Positions 1-11,633 of a stretch of DNA of 12,982 nucleotides are shown in pieces. The DNA is from Lachnospiraceae bacterium (lineage in GTDB: Bacteria; Bacillota_A; Clostridia; Lachnospirales; Lachnospiraceae). The position numbers were made by a program, and so were the translations under genes. The notes beneath the pieces were generated by a model. It saw only the letters and a program-made list of their open reading frames with translations. It made no database searches and had not been told where the DNA came from. The first letter of the stretch is position 1. Every line of letters begins with the position of its first letter. The stretch covers positions 1 to 12,982 of the forward strand of contig JAEEJD010000167.1 in the NCBI GenBank assembly GCA_016281675.1. Reading direction: 5' to 3'.

Positions 1-1170
1 GGGGTCCTGACGCAGAATGGAACGGAGCGCTGACGCGAAAGTCAGTTCCGCTTTGACGTTAACCTGTACCTGGTTGATTCCGTTTACGTTCGCTTCGACA
101 GGATCCTCAACGGTAATTATGTTAACCTCATCGGAATTCAGTTCCGATAAAACCGTGTAACATGTAGTTGATTTACCCGAACCGGTAGGTCCCGTAACAA
201 GGATGATACCGTGCGGGTTCGACATGATCGCATCGAACCTCGGAAGCTCGCGTTCGTTAAGTCCGAGATACTTCTTGTCTCTCGTCAGTCCGTCCTTGGA
301 CGTCAGTCTCATAACGACCTTCTCACCGAACACGGTCGGAAGTATGGATACACGGACATCGTATTCTTTACTGTCGACAACAACGGTAAGACGTCCGTCC
401 TGCGGTTTTCTCTTCTCGGAGATATCCAGGTTTGAAATGATCTTGATTCGTGCAACAAGCGCCGGAAGAAGCGATTTGTCGTAGTCCATATTCTCGACGA
501 GAACGCCGTCGATCCTGAAACGGACACGCACTTCTCTGTCAAGCGCTTCGATATGAATATCGGATGCACCCTGTCTGACAGCCGTCTCGAGCATTGTCTT
601 AACGAGCTTAACGATAGGTGCATCATCGATGTTTTCGTATTCAATGTCGGAAGTCGTGGTATCAAAAGCTATCTCCGCCGCATGCTCCTCCTGGAACTGA
701 GCCGCAGCAGCCCTTGCCTGTTCCTTACCGTATCTTCTGTCAAGCTGCAGGGATATCTGCGCACTCGGACAGAAATATGGAATGACTTCCATATTCGTCA
801 TTATGGTGACATCGTCGATCGCCATGATGTTCATGGGATCCGCCATTGCCACTTTTAGGATGTTGGGATTCTTCTCGTCGAAACCGAAAGGGATCAGCTG
901 ATTCTTCTTCATCAGGTCCTCGGACACAAGCCTAACGGCGTTGTCGTCAAGACCGACTTTACGAAGATCGACCGTATCTATGCCGAGCTGTGAAGAAAGA
1001 ATATTGGAGAAATCCTCCTGCGAGACATAACCAAGCGCTATCAGCGTCTCACCGAGCTTAGCTCCTCTTATCTTCTGCTCTTTTAATGCCGTTTCGAGCT
1101 GAGACGGTGTGATCAGCCCCTCGCTGATCATCAGGTCGCCGATACGGACTTTTTTACGAATGATTGCCAT
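1..1170 (-). CDS. pilB: Type IV pilus assembly / type II secretion ATPase (PilB/GspE family), 3' part cut by window edge
   Basis: Hexameric cytoplasmic ATPase that powers pilus or pseudopilus assembly. 390 residues are visible; the C-terminal part (Walker B, zinc-binding region) lies beyond the left edge. Residues 9-32 and 38-61 form two tandem 24-residue MshEN motifs (RIGDLM...Q32, KLGETL...Q61) spaced by five residues, the known c-di-GMP-binding arrangement. The ATPase domain shows the conserved ASDIHIE (202-208), Walker A GPTGSGKST (327-335) and IITVEDPVE (351-359). The ATG at 1170 is preceded by a good ribosome site (AAGGGGTG) and by a strong promoter. It follows the GH25 gene by 90 bases with no terminator between, so read-through from the envelope operon is possible. 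No other pilus gene is in view, so pilB versus gspE cannot be settled; family membership is certain. Confidence 0.95.
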   Translation of the reverse strand, partial: MAIIRKKVRIGDLMISEGLITPSQLETALKEQKIRGAKLGETLIALGYVSQEDFSNILSSQLGIDTVDLRKVGLDDNAVRLVSEDLMKKNQLIPFGFDEKNPNILKVAMADPMNIMAIDDVTIMTNMEVIPYFCPSAQISLQLDRRYGKEQARAAAAQFQEEHAAEIAFDTTTSDIEYENIDDAPIVKLVKTMLETAVRQGASDIHIEALDREVRVRFRIDGVLVENMDYDKSLLPALVARIKIISNLDISEKRKPQDGRLTVVVDSKEYDVRVSILPTVFGEKVVMRLTSKDGLTRDKKYLGLNERELPRFDAIMSNPHGIILVTGPTGSGKSTTCYTVLSELNSDEVNIITVEDPVEANVNGINQVQVNVKAELTFASALRSILRQDP

Positions 1171-2361: not shown

Positions 2362-3045
2362 TTATCTGCCGAGTGCCTCTTTCACCTTATCGATCAGTTC
2401 CGAGGAGAACAGGTTCTCCTCAACAACTATAGGTATAACGCCTTCCTTGCGGATTATGCTTTCAAGAGACTCAAATACTTCCTGGGGTGACACTCCCGTG
2501 GAATCCCTTCCGATCACGAACAGATCCGGATGATGGTTCCTGATGTGATCGACCGCCTCAACGGATGAGCGTACGACTTTGACCTTGTATCCTTCCGCGA
2601 TCAGGTTATCACGCATGGACTTGAGCCGCGTTATGTCGTTATCGATTATCAGTACCTCTTTGTTCTTTTTTCCGACGGTTCCCTCATTGAATATCTTCTC
2701 GAGACGGGCCAGAAGTTCACTCTTCGGAATGGTCTTGACCAGGTAGCCCGCTGCACCTTTCCCCATCAGTTCCCTGACGAGATTGGGATTGGCGACACCC
2801 GACAAAAATACGACCGGTGTCTCGTTGAGTTCGGGATCCTTTATCAGCTTATCGAACGCTTCAATGCCGTTAACGACAGGCATCTCGATATCGAGAAGGA
2901 TCAGGTCCGCTCCGTAGCTTCCCATCTTCTCAACGAATCTGTATCCCGCGTTCTCCGTAACGACATCATATGTATCCTCAAGATATTTCTTCAGTATCTT
3001 GAGCGTCATGATATCATCATCTACTATAAGTATCCTTTTTTTCAT
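2362..3045 (-). CDS. Tandem receiver protein: one intact and one degenerate REC domain, no output domain
   Basis: 227-residue cytoplasmic signalling protein made only of receiver-type folds. REC1 (about 3-121) has a full active site: D9-D11 acidic cluster, phospho-acceptor D52 in LLDIEMP, S82 in VFLSG and K104 in YLVK. REC2 (about 129-226) keeps the opening VLIIDND (D135, D137). At the acceptor position it reads DLFVIG, with glycine G179 in place of aspartate, and the switch lysine is not evident. REC2 is therefore probably a pseudo-receiver for dimerisation or partner binding. The gene starts at ATG with a GAAGGAAAG ribosome site that overlaps the stop of the preceding double-receiver gene (12-base gap), so the two are co-translated. 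No histidine kinase is encoded in the window. I recognise the folds but not a named family. Confidence 0.85.
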   Translation of the reverse strand: MKKRILIVDDDIMTLKILKKYLEDTYDVVTENAGYRFVEKMGSYGADLILLDIEMPVVNGIEAFDKLIKDPELNETPVVFLSGVANPNLVRELMGKGAAGYLVKTIPKSELLARLEKIFNEGTVGKKNKEVLIIDNDITRLKSMRDNLIAEGYKVKVVRSSVEAVDHIRNHHPDLFVIGRDSTGVSPQEVFESLESIIRKEGVIPIVVEENLFSSELIDKVKEALGR

Positions 3046-3057
3046 ATTCTTTCCTTC

Positions 3058-4305
3058 TTAACGGTTGGTGCCGAACAGTCCTTCCACAGCCTGCGATATC
3101 ATCTCGCGCTTAATGGGTTTGTTGAGTATTCCGACCACTCCGGGAGTGACAAGCGAAGTGCGCGACTGAGTAAAATCGTCGCCTACAAGATACATGACTG
3201 GAACATTTGCACATCCCGGCTGCATATGCACCGAATTGACCACCGATATACCGCTCATCCCCGGAAGATTCGGATTGATGATCAGAAGATCCGCACGGTT
3301 CCTGACGAAATAATCCACGGTCTTCATGCCCGATTCGAATGCTATGACGTTGTGGTTCTGAGTAAGAAACAGCGAGCACAGTTTTCTTGTCTTAACATCA
3401 TCGTCAACGATGACAACCGTCTTCTTCTCATAAGTTGCCGTCGATCTGATCTGCCTCTCCGGCTCCTCGAGTTTGATCGAACCCTGGGCATTAAACGCAC
3501 CGTAGGGGTTGCCCATGGCCTTCTCTTTGAGTTTTGCAACCGAATCGGAAGCCGCGGATGATGCGGAAGATGCAGAAGATGTGGGAGCTGCTTGACTCCC
3601 TGCATTCTTGTTACTTATCCTCTTTTTATATTCGGAATACCCGTTACGGGACCTTCTTCTTGAGAACTCCCCGTCTTCGTCGGTATTCTTTGCCCCTTTA
3701 ACTTTGGTGGCCGCATCAATAAGTGTTCTTATATCGGAAGCGCGCTTCCTTCCTCGCTCAAGTGCTGCCTCGAGATTCTCCATGCGGGACTCCATATCGA
3801 GTACAACAACACGAGGACTTCCGTCATCATCAGGCGCCTTAACACTCGTTCCCGCGATCCTCTCTATATTCTTAACATCCTCGTATCCGGTAATGACAGG
3901 CTCAGGCATGAACTCAGCTTTTTCGATTGCCTCGGTTATCACCGAAAACAGGCGGCTCTCTTCCGCTTCACCTTCATAGAATACGACATCTCCGATCTCA
4001 AGAAACTCCATGCATCTGTCGGAAAATTCGTCTTCAGTCATGACGACAACCGGGATCATCGCGATATCCGGATTGCCGGACTTGTTGATCATCCAGTCAT
4101 ATACGTAAAGGCCGAGACTTTTTGCATCGTCGCCGTACAACAATACGATATCCGGAACGACTCCTTCGGCATCGGGTTTGAGATAATCGAGCGCACCGTC
4201 TCCGTACCCGATCGCAACACTCGCGAAATAATCGGGAAGAAGACTTACTATGCCTTCCCGACGATTTCTGTCGTCATCGATTATGATCGCTCGAAGTTGA
4301 CTCAT
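3058..4305 (-). CDS. Double pseudo-receiver protein (N- and C-terminal REC domains, both without phospho-Asp)
   Basis: 415-residue soluble protein. The N-terminal receiver-like domain (about 4-130) has D10-D12 and T90, but the acceptor position in DIVLLYG is tyrosine (Y57) and the switch lysine is absent. The middle (about 135-292) is charged and partly helical, with a Ser/Ala low-complexity stretch (SSASSASSAASDS, 243-255) typical of a flexible linker. The C-terminal receiver (about 294-413) has D301-D303 and the switch lysine K396 in NKP, but the acceptor in LLIINPNLPG is asparagine (N344) and the usual Thr/Ser is V374. Both domains keep the fold yet look unable to accept phosphate. The ATG follows the bactofilin stop by one base (TAGgATG), indicating translational coupling. 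It may act as an adaptor or scaffold; no family name is assigned. Confidence 0.8.
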   Translation of the reverse strand: MSQLRAIIIDDDRNRREGIVSLLPDYFASVAIGYGDGALDYLKPDAEGVVPDIVLLYGDDAKSLGLYVYDWMINKSGNPDIAMIPVVVMTEDEFSDRCMEFLEIGDVVFYEGEAEESRLFSVITEAIEKAEFMPEPVITGYEDVKNIERIAGTSVKAPDDDGSPRVVVLDMESRMENLEAALERGRKRASDIRTLIDAATKVKGAKNTDEDGEFSRRRSRNGYSEYKKRISNKNAGSQAAPTSSASSASSAASDSVAKLKEKAMGNPYGAFNAQGSIKLEEPERQIRSTATYEKKTVVIVDDDVKTRKLCSLFLTQNHNVIAFESGMKTVDYFVRNRADLLIINPNLPGMSGISVVNSVHMQPGCANVPVMYLVGDDFTQSRTSLVTPGVVGILNKPIKREMISQAVEGLFGTNR

Positions 4306-4306
4306 C

Positions 4307-4777
4307 CTACTGCTCTCTGTTTGCCTCCTGCTTAGGCTCTTCCTTTTCCTGTTTTTCCTGTATCTCGGGTTTTACAGGAGCCTCTTTGAGTCTGAAGCGT
4401 CCCCGTTTGTTCTTGGTCCTGTCAACATTCATGTTGCATTTACCCTGGAATACAGACTGCTCATCTATGAGAACTCTGGCCGTGGTGATGTCACCGTATA
4501 CCTCACCGGTAGGCTCGATGTTCGTCTTGTCCTTTATTGTCAGGTTACCGTCAACAACACCTGCGACGATGATGTTCTCGGCCATCACATTTCCCTGTAT
4601 CTCTCCGTTTGACGAAAGAACCACCGTACCGTCTGCAACGACTCCGCCGACCACTTTGCCGTCGATCCTTACCGATGAATGAGTAATGAGCGTTCCTTCC
4701 ACCTTAGTATCCGCACCGATGAAAGTGGTTATGGACGTCTGACTGACCCTTACTTTGTTGTCATCCTTAAAAAACAT
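4307..4777 (-). CDS. Bactofilin (polymer-forming cytoskeletal protein)
   Basis: Bactofilins self-assemble without nucleotide into membrane-associated filaments that position cell-wall enzymes and determine local cell shape. This 156-residue protein has a short N-terminal segment (1-13, beginning MFFKDD, similar to the short membrane-targeting tails of the family), a right-handed beta-helix core (about 15-117) and a charged disordered tail (118-156, rich in K, E, P, Q). The core shows repeated turns typical of the family: TFIGADTKVEGTL, VRIDGKVVGGV, GEIQGNV, GEVYGDI. The ATG has an AAGAGGTG ribosome site. The gene lies directly after an M23-like membrane protein, a recurrent pairing for bactofilins, here with a peptidase domain that has lost its metal ligands, and overlaps functionally with the GH25 enzyme in the same operon. 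Confidence 0.95.
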   Translation of the reverse strand: MFFKDDNKVRVSQTSITTFIGADTKVEGTLITHSSVRIDGKVVGGVVADGTVVLSSNGEIQGNVMAENIIVAGVVDGNLTIKDKTNIEPTGEVYGDITTARVLIDEQSVFQGKCNMNVDRTKNKRGRFRLKEAPVKPEIQEKQEKEEPKQEANREQ

Positions 4778-6993: not shown

Positions 6994-7012
6994 TAACAGA
7001 TCTAGGGATTAT

Positions 7013-7043
7013 AAAAAAGGAACCGCAATCCGGTTCCTTTTTT
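7013..7043. terminator. Bidirectional intrinsic terminator between csp and the HD-GYP operon
   Basis: AAAAAAGGAACCG (7013-7025), loop CAATC, CGGTTCCTTTTTT (7031-7043). The seven-base GC-containing stem is extended by six A:T pairs, so each strand reads stem then U-tract. It can stop csp transcription on the plus strand and the five-gene minus-strand operon that ends at 7058. Confidence 0.92.
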
Positions 7044-7057
7044 ATTGCTTTTCTTCT

Positions 7058-8218
7058 TTATCTGATCACCCTGTTCGGATTCTGTGCCTGAACCTGAGGC
7101 TGATTGTTGTTCATGACCTGCTGTGACATCGCCATGTTCTGCTTGGTCTGCGCTTCGATGCTCATCGACGCATCCCTGATATCCATGTGGACTCTCTGGA
7201 ATGCCGCAACAACCTGCGGATCGAACTGGACTCCCGCGCCCTGGGTGATTATGTTGTATGCTTCTTCATGCGTTTTCGCTTTCTTGTAACTTCTCTCGGC
7301 AACAAGACCGTCGTAAACATCGGCAACCGCCAGGATCCTTGCAAGGATGGGAATGTTGCTGCCCGCAAGTCTGTCCGGATAACCGTTTCCGTCCACTCTC
7401 TCGTGATGATATTTTGCCATCTGGAAAGTGTAGTACAGGAACTTGTTGTTCGGAAGCAGGTAAGCGTATTTCTGTATGGCATTCGCCGCCATCGTAGTGT
7501 GCGATTTCATAAGTGCGAACTCTTCGTCCGTGTACTTTCCGACTTTGCCGAGAACCGCATCCGGAACACCGATCTTACCCATGTCATGAAGACGGGAACT
7601 GAGCAGGATCAATTCGAAATCATTCGGGTCGATCCCGTAGTTGATACCGGATAACAGCATCTCTTTTAACAGGATCTCCATATACTTGGAAACACATATA
7701 CAGTGCATGCCCGTATAAGGGTCCTTCTGTGAGATCAGGTCGGTGATGATACCGATGATGAAATACTCCAGGTTCATGGCGTTTCTCGCCTGGAAGTTCG
7801 CGGCCTGCTGAAGCTGCGAATTGTACGTGTTCATCTGGGATTTGTATTCGAGATTGTTCGCCTGAAGCTCCATACGTTTACGGAGCAGATCGGGTATGAT
7901 GGGCTTTCGGATAAAATCAACGCCCCCGAGTCTGTAGGCCTCCATCTCGGTCGTGTTCTCCTTGTCACCCGACAGGAAAAGCACCGGGATGTTCTTGGTC
8001 TTCTCACTCGCCTTCAGACGCATGATAAAATCGAATCCGTTTATACCCGGCATGGCAACATCCAGAAGGATGAAATCGGGCATGATCGTTGATTTGGCAA
8101 GACGCTGGAGTGCTGTCTTGGGACTGCTGATATCAATAATGCTGTACTGCTTCTCGAGTGCCTTCTTGGCAACAAGAAGTTCGGTATCGTTATCATCGAT
8201 TATCATTATCGTGTACAT
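7058..8218 (-). CDS. Response regulator with HD-GYP c-di-GMP phosphodiesterase domain
   Basis: 386-residue cytoplasmic protein expected to hydrolyse cyclic di-GMP under control of phosphorylation. The receiver domain (about 3-118) is complete: D8/D9, phospho-acceptor D53 in LLDVAMPG, S83, K105 in RKP. A helical linker (119-150) leads to the HD-GYP domain (about 151-345), with metal and signature residues HDMGKIG (H211, D212), H240, HHERVDGNGYP (271-281) and DVYDGLVAERSYKKA (300-314). The tail (355-386) is rich in Q, N and M and looks disordered. The ATG overlaps the end of the upstream hisA-like gene by 13 bases, with GGAGGAG eight bases before it, so the two are coupled. It is the last gene of its operon, before the bidirectional terminator. 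All catalytic residues appear present. Confidence 0.95.
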   Translation of the reverse strand: MYTIMIIDDNDTELLVAKKALEKQYSIIDISSPKTALQRLAKSTIMPDFILLDVAMPGINGFDFIMRLKASEKTKNIPVLFLSGDKENTTEMEAYRLGGVDFIRKPIIPDLLRKRMELQANNLEYKSQMNTYNSQLQQAANFQARNAMNLEYFIIGIITDLISQKDPYTGMHCICVSKYMEILLKEMLLSGINYGIDPNDFELILLSSRLHDMGKIGVPDAVLGKVGKYTDEEFALMKSHTTMAANAIQKYAYLLPNNKFLYYTFQMAKYHHERVDGNGYPDRLAGSNIPILARILAVADVYDGLVAERSYKKAKTHEEAYNIITQGAGVQFDPQVVAAFQRVHMDIRDASMSIEAQTKQNMAMSQQVMNNNQPQVQAQNPNRVIR

Positions 8219-8982
8219 GCAATAATCTCCTCCAGCTTCAGATTGCCTCCGAATATATCAAGCTTGGATCCGACCGTGAAGTCGACTCGGCCCTCACCTG
8301 TATCTTTGAGTTTATCGATATCCTCATATGACGATATCCCGCCCGCATAGCACACGGGACGTTCGGACTCTTTCAGTACCGCAATGAGCCTCTCGTCAAT
8401 ACCGGCGGATTTTCCTTCCGAATCAACAGCGTGAACGAGAAAATCATCGCATGAGCTTTTCAGTCTGTCAAAAAGCTTTGCATCAACGACCTCATCAGAT
8501 ACATTCTGCCATCTGTCGGTCACGATGCGGTAGGCTCCGTCGATATACCTGCAACTGAGGTCAAGCGTTATCCTCTCCCGTCCGACCGCAGATACGAGTC
8601 TTGCAAGATTGTCGTCGTTTATGACTCCGCCCGAAAATACAAAGCTGGTCACTATGACATGACCTGCACCCGCATCGAGAAACTGCTTTGCGTTATCCGC
8701 GTTGATGCCTCCTCCCGCGGATAATCCTCCGGGGTATTCACCAAGTGCCGCAAGCGCCTGGGCTTTAGTTGCCTCATAATATTCGCTTCCCCGCGCGTTA
8801 AGCATTATCACGTGTCCGCCGGGAAGGTCATGTTCTTTATAGAGTCTCGCATAAAACGCAGCGTCCCTGTCGGATACATAATTCTCTTCGGCACTGTCGC
8901 CTTCATCACGAAGCGTGGATCCGACGATCTGTTTTACCTTGCCGTTATGTATGTCGATACAGGGACGAAACTCCATGTTCAC
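8206..8982 (-). CDS. hisA: Eukaryote-type (HIS6-like) HisA isomerase
   Basis: Predicted ProFAR isomerase, the fourth step enzyme of histidine synthesis, a TIM barrel of 258 residues. It resembles yeast HIS6 more than ordinary bacterial HisA: FRPCIDIHNGKVKQIVG near the start, GGGIN (90-94), ITLDLSCR, YAGGISS (212-218) and GSKLDIFGGNL (238-248). The two catalytic aspartates expected for HisA are present (D10 and D141). No other his gene is in the window; it sits between dapB and the HD-GYP gene, 13 bases after dapB. The start is either GTG 8982 (AAGGA four bases before) or ATG 8976 (ten bases before); the difference is two residues. Its ordinary function is well supported by the motifs; why it is placed here is unknown. 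Confidence 0.9.
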   Translation of the reverse strand: MNMEFRPCIDIHNGKVKQIVGSTLRDEGDSAEENYVSDRDAAFYARLYKEHDLPGGHVIMLNARGSEYYEATKAQALAALGEYPGGLSAGGGINADNAKQFLDAGAGHVIVTSFVFSGGVINDDNLARLVSAVGRERITLDLSCRYIDGAYRIVTDRWQNVSDEVVDAKLFDRLKSSCDDFLVHAVDSEGKSAGIDERLIAVLKESERPVCYAGGISSYEDIDKLKDTGEGRVDFTVGSKLDIFGGNLKLEEIIACTR

Positions 8983-8995
8983 TTTATCCTTATGT

Positions 8996-9751
8996 TTAAT
9001 TCAAGACATCGCCCATATCGTATTTGCCGGCGCTCTTTCCGGCCACAAACTTTGCGGCCTCAACTGCACCCTTGGCAAACACGGCTCTTGAGTATGCCGT
9101 ATGCGAGAACGTTATCACTTCATCGCGTCCCGCGAAGATCACATCGTGGTCACCCACGATCGTGCCACCTCTTACGGCCGAGATACCGATCTCGGTATCG
9201 GGTCTTACCATTCTTCGTTCTGACCTGTCGAATACATAGTCCTTCTTCTTCGCAAGTCCCTCATTGACCGAATCCGCAAGGGCAAGTGCCGTACCCGAAG
9301 GAGCATCGAGCTTGGTACGGTGATGCTTCTCCACTATCTCGATATCAAAGCCCGCCTCGGCAAGCTTTGCTGCATTTTCTTTTAATATCTTCTGGATGAT
9401 GTTGATCCCGAGAGACATGTTTGCCGATTTGAACATCGGTATGGCTTCTGACGCTTTTTCGATCTTCGCAAGAGTCTCATCGGTGAGCCCCGTCGTGCAT
9501 TCGACAAGAGGAATCTTGTTTGCGACGCACCAGTCGATCACTTTATCAACGGCAGCACTGTTACCGAAGTCCACAACTACATCGGCCTTTTCCGTGATCT
9601 TCTCTATACTGTCGACTACGGGGAACGATCCGTCCGATGCGGTGTTAAGATCAACGCCTGCCGATATCTCGATATCCGGATCTTCGGCAACTATTCCGGC
9701 GATCATCTTTCCCATACGGCCGTTACAGCCGTGCATGATCATCTTAACCAT
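8996..9751 (-). CDS. dapB: 4-hydroxy-tetrahydrodipicolinate reductase
   Basis: Reduces the DapA product to tetrahydrodipicolinate with NAD(P)H, the second committed step to diaminopimelate and lysine. It has 251 residues, a normal length for the family. The Rossmann loop HGCNGRMGK (7-15) binds the nucleotide; VVVDFGN (58-64) and CTTG (85-88) follow; EKHHRTKLDAPSGTA (141-155) carries the catalytic histidine and the substrate-binding lysine; FSHTAYSR (215-222) closes the C-terminal part. The start ATG overlaps the dapA stop by one base (TAATG), so translation is coupled, with GGGGTG upstream. Diaminopimelate feeds both protein synthesis (lysine) and peptidoglycan cross-links, the material acted on by the wall genes elsewhere in the window. 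Confidence 0.97.
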   Translation of the reverse strand: MVKMIMHGCNGRMGKMIAGIVAEDPDIEISAGVDLNTASDGSFPVVDSIEKITEKADVVVDFGNSAAVDKVIDWCVANKIPLVECTTGLTDETLAKIEKASEAIPMFKSANMSLGINIIQKILKENAAKLAEAGFDIEIVEKHHRTKLDAPSGTALALADSVNEGLAKKKDYVFDRSERRMVRPDTEIGISAVRGGTIVGDHDVIFAGRDEVITFSHTAYSRAVFAKGAVEAAKFVAGKSAGKYDMGDVLN

Positions 9752-10635
9752 TACAGCACCCCGTAATCTTCCATCGCTTTTTTAAGCGTCTGGGCATTCT
9801 CGGGTTCCATCTCGCAAAGAGGACGTCTTAATATTCCGCGGTCCCTTCCCTGAAGTTCAAGTGCTTTCTTGACGGGTATAGGATTAACCTCGCAGAACAG
9901 TGCATTGCAAAGAGGAATGGCATCGAGCTGTCTCTTGGCGGCAAGTTTGGGATCATTGTCAAAGAACGCCTGACAAATGTCATGTGTCTTGCGCGGTGCA
10001 ACATTGGAAAGAACCGAAATGACACCGATACCGCCGAGTGCCATTATCGGAACGATCTGATCGTCGTTTCCGGAATAAAGCTCAATCTTGTCTCCGCAAA
10101 GGCTCATGAGTTTTGCGATCTGAGAGATGTTGCCGCTCGCTTCCTTGATACCTACGATGTTCGGAACGGTTGAAACAAGTGTTGCAGCCGTCTGGGGCAG
10201 AATATTGCAGCCTGTTCTTCCCGGAACATTGTAGAGGATGATCGGGAGCTTAACGCTCTCGGCTACCATTGTGAAATGCTCTATAAGACCCTTCTGGGTT
10301 GATTTGTTGTAATAAGGTGTAACGACAAGAAGTGCGTCAACTCCGTACTTCTCCGCTTCCTGTGAAAGATAGATCGCGGTCTCTGTACAGTTCGATCCGG
10401 TTCCCGCAATGACAGGGATCCTGTGATCAACAACTTCCGCGCAGAACCTGATGCATTCAAGATGCTCCTCGTGTGACAGGCATGATGCCTCTCCGGTCGT
10501 TCCGCACACGACGATCGCATCGGTGCCGTTATCTATCTGGTATTCTATCTGTTCTTTGAACTTATCGTAGTCTACATCTCCGTTCGCAAGAAACGGTGTG
10601 CATATCGCTACTGCTGCTCCTTTGAAAACCGACAT
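9751..10635 (-). CDS. dapA: 4-hydroxy-tetrahydrodipicolinate synthase
   Basis: Condenses pyruvate with aspartate semialdehyde through a lysine Schiff base, the entry to the diaminopimelate/lysine pathway. The 294-residue TIM barrel has the usual length and active site: GTTGEA (45-50; T46, T47), TPYYNK with Y109, YNVPGRTG with Y135 and R140, and Schiff-base lysine K164 in VGIKEAS. SGNDD (188-192) is the conserved late loop. The ATG at 10635 has GGAGG nine bases upstream; an ATG seven bases earlier is out of frame. The gene lies 44 bases after the CheX-like gene with no terminator and no convincing promoter, so it is probably transcribed from the promoter at about 11605-11633. No lysine riboswitch is present in the 44-base gap. 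Confidence 0.97.
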   Translation of the reverse strand: MSVFKGAAVAICTPFLANGDVDYDKFKEQIEYQIDNGTDAIVVCGTTGEASCLSHEEHLECIRFCAEVVDHRIPVIAGTGSNCTETAIYLSQEAEKYGVDALLVVTPYYNKSTQKGLIEHFTMVAESVKLPIILYNVPGRTGCNILPQTAATLVSTVPNIVGIKEASGNISQIAKLMSLCGDKIELYSGNDDQIVPIMALGGIGVISVLSNVAPRKTHDICQAFFDNDPKLAAKRQLDAIPLCNALFCEVNPIPVKKALELQGRDRGILRRPLCEMEPENAQTLKKAMEDYGVL

Positions 10636-10679: not shown

Positions 10680-11561
10680 TTATCTCGATGACTTGAGACT
10701 GATGATCCAGTCAAGCGGCTGCTGATTGACATAGATCGGGATCACGATCACGCTCGAACCGTTGATCTCCACGGGTTCCGCCGAAAGAACCGGAGGCAAC
10801 AGATTAAGTTCCATTCCCTCTTTGCTCATCGCTGTCGCGAACAGTCCGTCGGAAATATTGATGAATTCGCCGACCGAATCAAGTGCGTTTATATCAACCG
10901 TATCGAAGAATTCCTTTGCAAAAGCTTCGGCTATCGCAAGAATACCTTTGTCGTCCCCCGAGAAAGCATTGATGACGTTGTAATCTCCTATTATCTCCTG
11001 CATTGCTACGGCACCTGTCTGGAAATTGGATGTCGTATATCCGCGCTTAAGCGAAATATCATCAGCAACAAGACGGTTGATACACCTGAACGTCACCGCA
11101 AGAAGCTCTCTGTAAGGTCCTTCGGGCATATCCGGAAGGAAGAGGGGAAGGATTCTGTCAACATCTCCCGACTTGATCGACTCCATGTCGGCGAACGTGA
11201 AGCCGTTCTCCTTCTTGAAATAATCCATCGCTCCCTCGATCTGTTCGAGAGTCAGTATCTCATTGTCTATAGCGCTCTGGCAGAACATCATATACTGATT
11301 GCCCTGAAGAGCCAAAAGGCGTTCGACCTGAACATCCGTAAGATATCCGAGCGATATCGCGATATCTCCGAACTTCCTGTCCATCACCTGCTGTTTACGG
11401 TTAACCTCATCTGCCTGTTTCTCGGTGATCAGTCTCTCGGAAACGGCGATGAGGCCCAGCTTGACTCTCGTCTTGTAGAGCTGCATCTTGATCTGAACGA
11501 ACTCTTCCTCGCTTATGATCTTTTTTCTTACAAGATAATTACCGAAAATATTAGCAAACAT
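10680..11561 (-). CDS. Tandem MshEN-like repeats fused to a CheX-like phosphatase domain
   Basis: 293-residue cytoplasmic protein. Residues 5-28, 34-57, 63-86 and 92-115 form four units with a 29-residue period, matching the 24+5 layout of MshEN c-di-GMP-binding motifs. The third is closest to consensus (KFGDIAISLGYL...Q86); the others have lost the central glycine (K14, R43, E101). The C-terminal half (about 150-290) resembles CheX/CheC phosphatases: FSGDDKGILAI (200-210), the E-x-x-N catalytic signature in GEFIN (E232, N235) and NLLPPVLS (253-260), which parallels TPPTVV of CheX. It may therefore remove phosphate from a receiver, perhaps the HD-GYP regulator at the end of the same operon. 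The ATG has a GGGGGAT ribosome site. It is the first gene of the operon. No named family is claimed. Confidence 0.75.
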   Translation of the reverse strand: MFANIFGNYLVRKKIISEEEFVQIKMQLYKTRVKLGLIAVSERLITEKQADEVNRKQQVMDRKFGDIAISLGYLTDVQVERLLALQGNQYMMFCQSAIDNEILTLEQIEGAMDYFKKENGFTFADMESIKSGDVDRILPLFLPDMPEGPYRELLAVTFRCINRLVADDISLKRGYTTSNFQTGAVAMQEIIGDYNVINAFSGDDKGILAIAEAFAKEFFDTVDINALDSVGEFINISDGLFATAMSKEGMELNLLPPVLSAEPVEINGSSVIVIPIYVNQQPLDWIISLKSSR

Positions 11562-11604: not shown

Positions 11605-11633
11605 ATTATATTATAATCAAGCACATTTGTCTT
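11605..11633 (-). promoter_or_regulatory. Promoter of the CheX-dapAB-hisA-HD-GYP operon
   Basis: Minus-strand -35 AAGACA (11628-11633), 17-base spacer and perfect -10 TATAAT (11605-11610). A second overlapping TATAAT lies at 11610-11615. Transcription would begin near 11598, about 37 bases before the ATG at 11561. The promoter lies immediately after the typA stop codon; no hairpin with T-tract separates typA from it. Confidence 0.6.

Follow-up and report, generated by a model that had tools for sequence, protein, structure and literature searches.

What does a repeat array resembling a sensor of cyclic di-GMP (c-di-GMP) do at the front of a chemotaxis-type phosphatase? This question is raised by a gene, here called CheXM, on a 12,982-nt contig from a gut bacterium of the Lachnospiraceae (assembly GCA_016281675.1, contig JAEEJD010000167.1), the whole of which we refer to as the window. 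A preliminary description made from the sequence alone had read the frame at 10680–11561 on the minus strand as four MshEN-like repeats joined to a CheX-type phosphatase, and the frame is found there, running from an ATG through its stop codon and encoding 293 residues. On balance, we favor the reading that the product is a phosphatase of the CheX type acting on CheY-like receivers, and that a cyclic dinucleotide, most likely c-di-GMP, would control its activity from a site between units 2 and 3 of the array.

The array is apparent from the protein itself. When residues 1–122 are aligned to themselves, the top offset is 29 residues and the second is 58 (twice 29), and the score at offset 29 reaches a z of 5.2 against 2,000 shuffles, of which one (0.05%) equals it when all offsets between 12 and 61 are allowed; the units proposed to start at residues 5, 34, 63 and 92 are thereby supported. 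The NCBIfam profile NF053729, which describes the MshE-related c-di-GMP motif, matches two stretches of the protein (E = 2.9e-11; 43 bits, cut-off 38), the better of them residues 34–86, corresponding to units 2 and 3. The anticipated tandem helical motif is present in an AlphaFold2 model with a predicted local distance difference test score (pLDDT) of 91, in which units 2 and 3 overlay c-di-GMP-bound MshE (5htl) at 0.9 Å over 55 columns. CheXM accordingly has the tandem 24-residue motifs with a 29-residue step that mark MshEN domains and, in the predicted structure, the motif-pair fold. The Pfam MshEN model PF05157 gave no match to CheXM in the profile search, as we would expect, because in the window's PilB-like ATPase PF05157 falls on residues 62–151, behind a 53-residue motif that NF053729 recognizes at residues 9–61. 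This ATPase gene (window 1–1170, minus strand; NF053729, 69.5 bits) encodes an MshE-type motif pair of its own, and the window therefore holds a second protein with c-di-GMP motifs.

Within the array, the residues expected to contact a ligand are concentrated in the two central units. We scored the units against the relaxed c-di-GMP motif of 2016 in 80 closer members of the family, of which 12 come from the window's clade (the window itself plus 11 loci) and 68 are loci of a main group. In the clade, the mean scores over the 11 constrained positions are 6.8, 9.0, 11.0 and 8.5 for units 1 to 4. G36, Q57, G65 and Q86 are present in all 80 closer members, and unit 3 satisfies the motif completely in 79 of them. 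The earlier remark that singled out unit 3 alone as near consensus is thus correct as a count, yet unit 2 retains Lys at position 1, Gly at position 3 and Gln at position 24, so that both central units carry the MshEN combination of R, K or L at position 1, Gly3 and Gln24 (K34, G36, Q57 and K63, G65, Q86). In the window's clade, this Gln is missing from units 1 and 4. Work on the GSPII domains of Thermus PilF bears on these positions: in the available text of one study, measurable binding by GSPII-A required mending position 1 and both position-24 glutamines, and high affinity also required Gly at position 3, packing contacts having been removed first (PMC12002112), while another indicates that Lys serves well at position 1 in GSPII-B (PMC11731258).

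The C-terminal half bears out the proposed CheX assignment. Its match to the CheX profile PF13690 (E = 2.9e-6) lies barely above the curated cut-off, at 27.7 against 27 bits, and the predicted structure matches the CheX fold strongly. The ExxN pair that CheX requires, according to the text available to us (PMC3510030), is represented by E232 and N235 in 80 of 80 closer members, and in 15 more distant members the catalytic position is E in 4 and D in 11, with N in all 15. Dephosphorylation of CheY-P as the putative activity agrees with the receivers linked to this gene in its relatives.

Most members of the family show this linkage. A genome scan returned 445 relatives, and among the best 80 loci, which we analyzed, 70 records are titled Lachnospiraceae, the others Kineothrix, Lachnoclostridium, Herbinix, Bacillota, Clostridia or Clostridiales. 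A CheY-like receiver gene lies directly downstream in 68 of these 80 loci and beyond other open reading frames (ORFs) in one (L038), and none was found downstream in the 11 window-clade loci. Among 160 sampled genomes of the Lachnospiraceae, the family of Kineothrix alysoides (genome G001, locus L037), the MshEN-CheX gene is carried by 53 genomes in 55 copies, of which 52 adjoin or are fused to a receiver: the receiver gene has the copy immediately upstream of it in 29 cases and immediately downstream in 17 (L081–L085, L087, L090, L092–L094 and L144–L150, which are more distant members), and 6 copies are fused to it, leaving 3 without. The single-chain fusions (L095, L132, L133, L136, L141 and L142, in 6 of 53 carriers) all retain the E and N of ExxN. 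Genes around the pair vary, including those for cell division, cell wall and polymerase functions, which marks CheXM and its receiver as a conserved unit.

The linked receiver of one relative (locus L019) has CheY proteins of chemotaxis as its closest solved structures (E = 2e-33), but the linked receiver constitutes a second CheY-like protein: against a profile of the partner receiver it scores 200–208 bits in four genomes where the next receivers score 132–140, and this next-scoring receiver adjoins fliM in two genomes (G001 and G007). Across the 160 genomes, with kinship ignored, CheA (PF02895) is found in 52 of 53 carriers against 32 of 107 non-carriers, FliM in 49 against 36 (2 of these below the cut-off), GGDEF proteins in 53 against 83 and a PilB-size ATPase in 35 against 41, making the flagellar chemotaxis pathway the clearest partner of the MshEN-CheX gene. 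At five loci (L123, L124, L140, L086 and L060), a GGDEF gene of 803–811 codons adjoins the MshEN-CheX gene divergently, its frame in L086 being cut by the fragment end.

The window's clade departs from this pattern. In place of a receiver gene, all 11 clade loci share the order CheXM-dapA-dapB-HisA-REC-HD-GYP on one strand, with gaps in the window of 44, −1, 13 and −13 bases. A hairpin past the last gene (one of 6 in the window, against a mean of 3.9 in shuffles) is nearly palindromic, its ends being rich in T whichever strand is read, and therefore could also terminate the minus-strand run; promoter-like sites number 8 in the window against a mean of 6.0 in shuffles. The signature residues of REC and HD-GYP are retained in all 12 window-clade sequences. 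No ORF like the window's REC-HD-GYP (at E 1e-10 over half its length) was found in 69 other contig loci, so the neighborhood is peculiar to the clade. None of 7 clade genomes has a receiver scoring above 137.1 bits with the partner profile, whereas 4 other genomes have one at 200–208; the best match in all 7 is a CheY at 136–137 bits, which shares a contig with fliM in 6 and, in the seventh (G168), adjoins a FliY-like gene. FliM occurs in 8 of 8 clade genomes, and the clade's CheXM has a ratio of nonsynonymous to synonymous differences (pN/pS) of 0.16, with pS near saturation and the two halves of the protein alike (0.125 to 0.20 for the units). Given this constraint and the presence of FliM, the protein seems to have remained functional even though its usual neighbor is absent, and its substrate is probably either the flagellar CheY or the REC-HD-GYP protein of the same gene run. 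The preliminary description had proposed the HD-GYP receiver as the target; for the family as a whole this does not hold, the pairing being with a stand-alone CheY-like receiver, but it is possible within the clade, where the usual receiver is missing and REC-HD-GYP closes the run in 11 of 11 loci. Two clade genomes (G003 and G148) also contain a stand-alone CheX gene adjoining a different receiver (G003:C9:71234-72065 and L097). Further along the window (2362–4777, minus strand) lie genes for a tandem-receiver protein, a 415-residue protein with a C-terminal receiver and a bactofilin, which are grouped in several clade loci too.

Table 1. Features of the CheXM gene and its surroundings, in window coordinates
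Feature	Position	Strand	Remarks
CheXM, MshEN(x4)-CheX gene, 293 residues	10680..11561	-	profile searches, predicted structure
Unit 1, residues 5-33	11463..11549	-	position 1 not basic, position 24 without Gln
Unit 2, residues 34-62	11376..11462	-	K34, G36, Q57 retained; Gly, Leu, Leu replaced by R43, A50, N54
Unit 3, residues 63-91	11289..11375	-	full relaxed c-di-GMP motif: K63, G65, G72, V79, L83, Q86
Unit 4, residues 92-120	11202..11288	-	degenerate: M92, C94, F115
CheX phosphatase domain, residues 146-290	10692..11126	-	profile and fold match
Catalytic motif ExxN, E232-F-I-N235	10857..10868	-	role of ExxN from available text of PMC3510030
Promoter-like site AAGACA-17-TATAAT, 10/12, 5′ of CheXM	11605..11633	-	consensus match only
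dapA-like gene, 44 bases 3′ of CheXM	9751..10635	-	name from reading; neighbor in 11/11 clade loci
dapB-like gene, 1-base overlap with dapA	8996..9751	-	name from reading
HisA-like gene	8206..8982	-	name from reading
REC-HD-GYP gene, end of co-directional run, candidate substrate receiver in clade	7058..8218	-	profile searches
15-pair hairpin, 12 bases past REC-HD-GYP gene end	7011..7045	-	scan lists it on + strand

Several observations on unit 2 weigh against ligand control. Of the 80 closer members, 76 have a basic residue at its position 10 (K in 72, R in 4), 63 have Ala at position 17 and all 80 have Asn at position 21, so that the further MshEN combination of Gly (or A/S) at position 10 with hydrophobic residues at 17 and 21 occurs in unit 3 and fails in unit 2 at positions 10 (R43) and 21 (N54). 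Among the 15 more distant members (L081–L095), Gly occupies position 10 of this unit in 13; at position 21, 6 carry His and 3 carry Asn. Judged from these residues, the closer groups share an alike-remodeled half-site in unit 2 and keep the other half-site canonical. A somewhat unlikely alternative would accommodate this remodeling by having the units bind no nucleotide and serve as a helical dimerization or docking module that places CheX at the receiver or motor, like a degenerate GSPII domain. In the pocket of unit 2, the Leu, Leu and Gly of the motif are replaced by Asn, Ala and Lys/Arg, units 1 and 4 of the clade lack ligand residues, the four units are similarly constrained in the clade, as a structural module would be, and PilF GSPII-A is, in the text available, an MshEN-like domain that does not bind (PMC12002112). 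Such a module would leave unexplained why the ligand positions G36, Q57, G65, G72 and Q86 are invariant and K34 nearly so, why Q86 stays invariant even in a 19-row alignment with distant members, and why every carrier has GGDEF proteins. With the binding residues kept in units 2 and 3 and one half-site remodeled, this pair may plausibly bind a cyclic dinucleotide of uncertain identity.

The association with CheA and FliM, together with the CheX fold and ExxN, would also fit an ordinary, unregulated phosphatase of flagellar CheY with the array as a passive tether. We consider this improbable, as the clade's array is roughly as constrained as the catalytic domain, 7 of the 9 columns invariant across close and distant members fall within residues 1–86, and the stand-alone CheX genes of the two clade genomes sit beside a different receiver. 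Somewhat more credible, if still doubtful, is a special case of ligand-controlled phosphatase action in which the clade's enzyme has switched to the REC-HD-GYP protein encoded in the same run, so that a c-di-GMP sensor would govern how far a c-di-GMP-degrading enzyme is phosphorylated and close a feedback loop. The consistent lack of a downstream receiver and of a high-scoring partner elsewhere in the genome, the preserved gene order with its tight gaps and trailing hairpin, and the intact REC and HD-GYP signatures all point this way. This case rests, though, on gene order across intervening genes of biosynthetic types, in a neighborhood whose REC-HD-GYP gene was found in none of the 69 other contig loci, and the flagellar CheY is the nearest remaining relative of the missing receiver. 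The boldest version, which we think even less probable than a passive tether, holds that the asymmetric pocket, with its canonical half and its remodeled half bearing the invariant Asn, is tuned to a ligand other than c-di-GMP, such as cyclic GMP-AMP (cGAMP), and sets the phosphatase rate, with the clade's enzyme controlling the REC-HD-GYP c-di-GMP phosphodiesterase of its run in a second-messenger feedback loop that operates through receiver dephosphorylation.

Under the reading we favor, a cyclic dinucleotide, most likely c-di-GMP, would bind between units 2 and 3, with units 1 and 4 in a structural role, flanking the central pair and joining it to the CheX domain, to which binding would be coupled allosterically. 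In flagellated Lachnospiraceae, the substrate would be the adjoining single-domain CheY-like receiver, and the c-di-GMP level would thereby be linked to how long a CheY-type phosphate persists; the enzyme of the window's clade would act on the flagellar CheY or the REC-HD-GYP protein.

The modules themselves are familiar. The central pair of CheXM resembles the MshEN domains of Vibrio cholerae MshE (5htl) and the GSPII domains of Thermus PilF in its 29-residue step, its helix-loop-helix units and the Lys/Arg-x-Gly and Gln24 of both units, but differs in having R43, A50 and N54 at positions 10, 17 and 21 of unit 2, in standing within four units rather than two, with 1 and 4 degenerate, and in lacking an ATPase domain. 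The CheX proteins of Thermotoga (1squ/1xko) and Borrelia (3hzh, a CheX-CheY complex) are single CheX domains, to which CheXM adds the N-terminal sensor-like array. The preliminary description had taken the MshEN-CheX link to be undescribed, which proved mistaken: Wang et al. 2016 already name CheX among the MshEN partner domains and mention a duplicated MshEN_N, the available text giving the combination one sentence and no function (PMC5013675). The same description had set four units against the standard two; the four are real, but in the text at hand one of the three GSPII domains of PilF contains three motifs (PMC11731258), and from these two sources both the fusion as such and the presence of more than two motifs were known already. 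Among the matches listed in our literature searches, which mostly covered papers outside subscription, none is a study of an MshEN-CheX protein and none describes direct cyclic-dinucleotide control of receiver dephosphorylation. What is new here is the receiver link; known modules, in a combination noted earlier, come with a four-unit array, an apparently remodeled half-site, a linked or fused receiver and a receiver-less clade. The linkage, the natural fusions and the flagellar co-occurrence go beyond the available text of Wang et al. 2016 (PMC5013675).

The likely substrate is almost always encoded beside the gene or in one chain with it, which makes the idea testable with two purified proteins, and the receiver fusions and the receiver-less clade offer ready comparisons. 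c-di-GMP restrains swimming. With a sensor-like front and a phosphatase-like back, CheXM suggests a route by which c-di-GMP may steer swimming.
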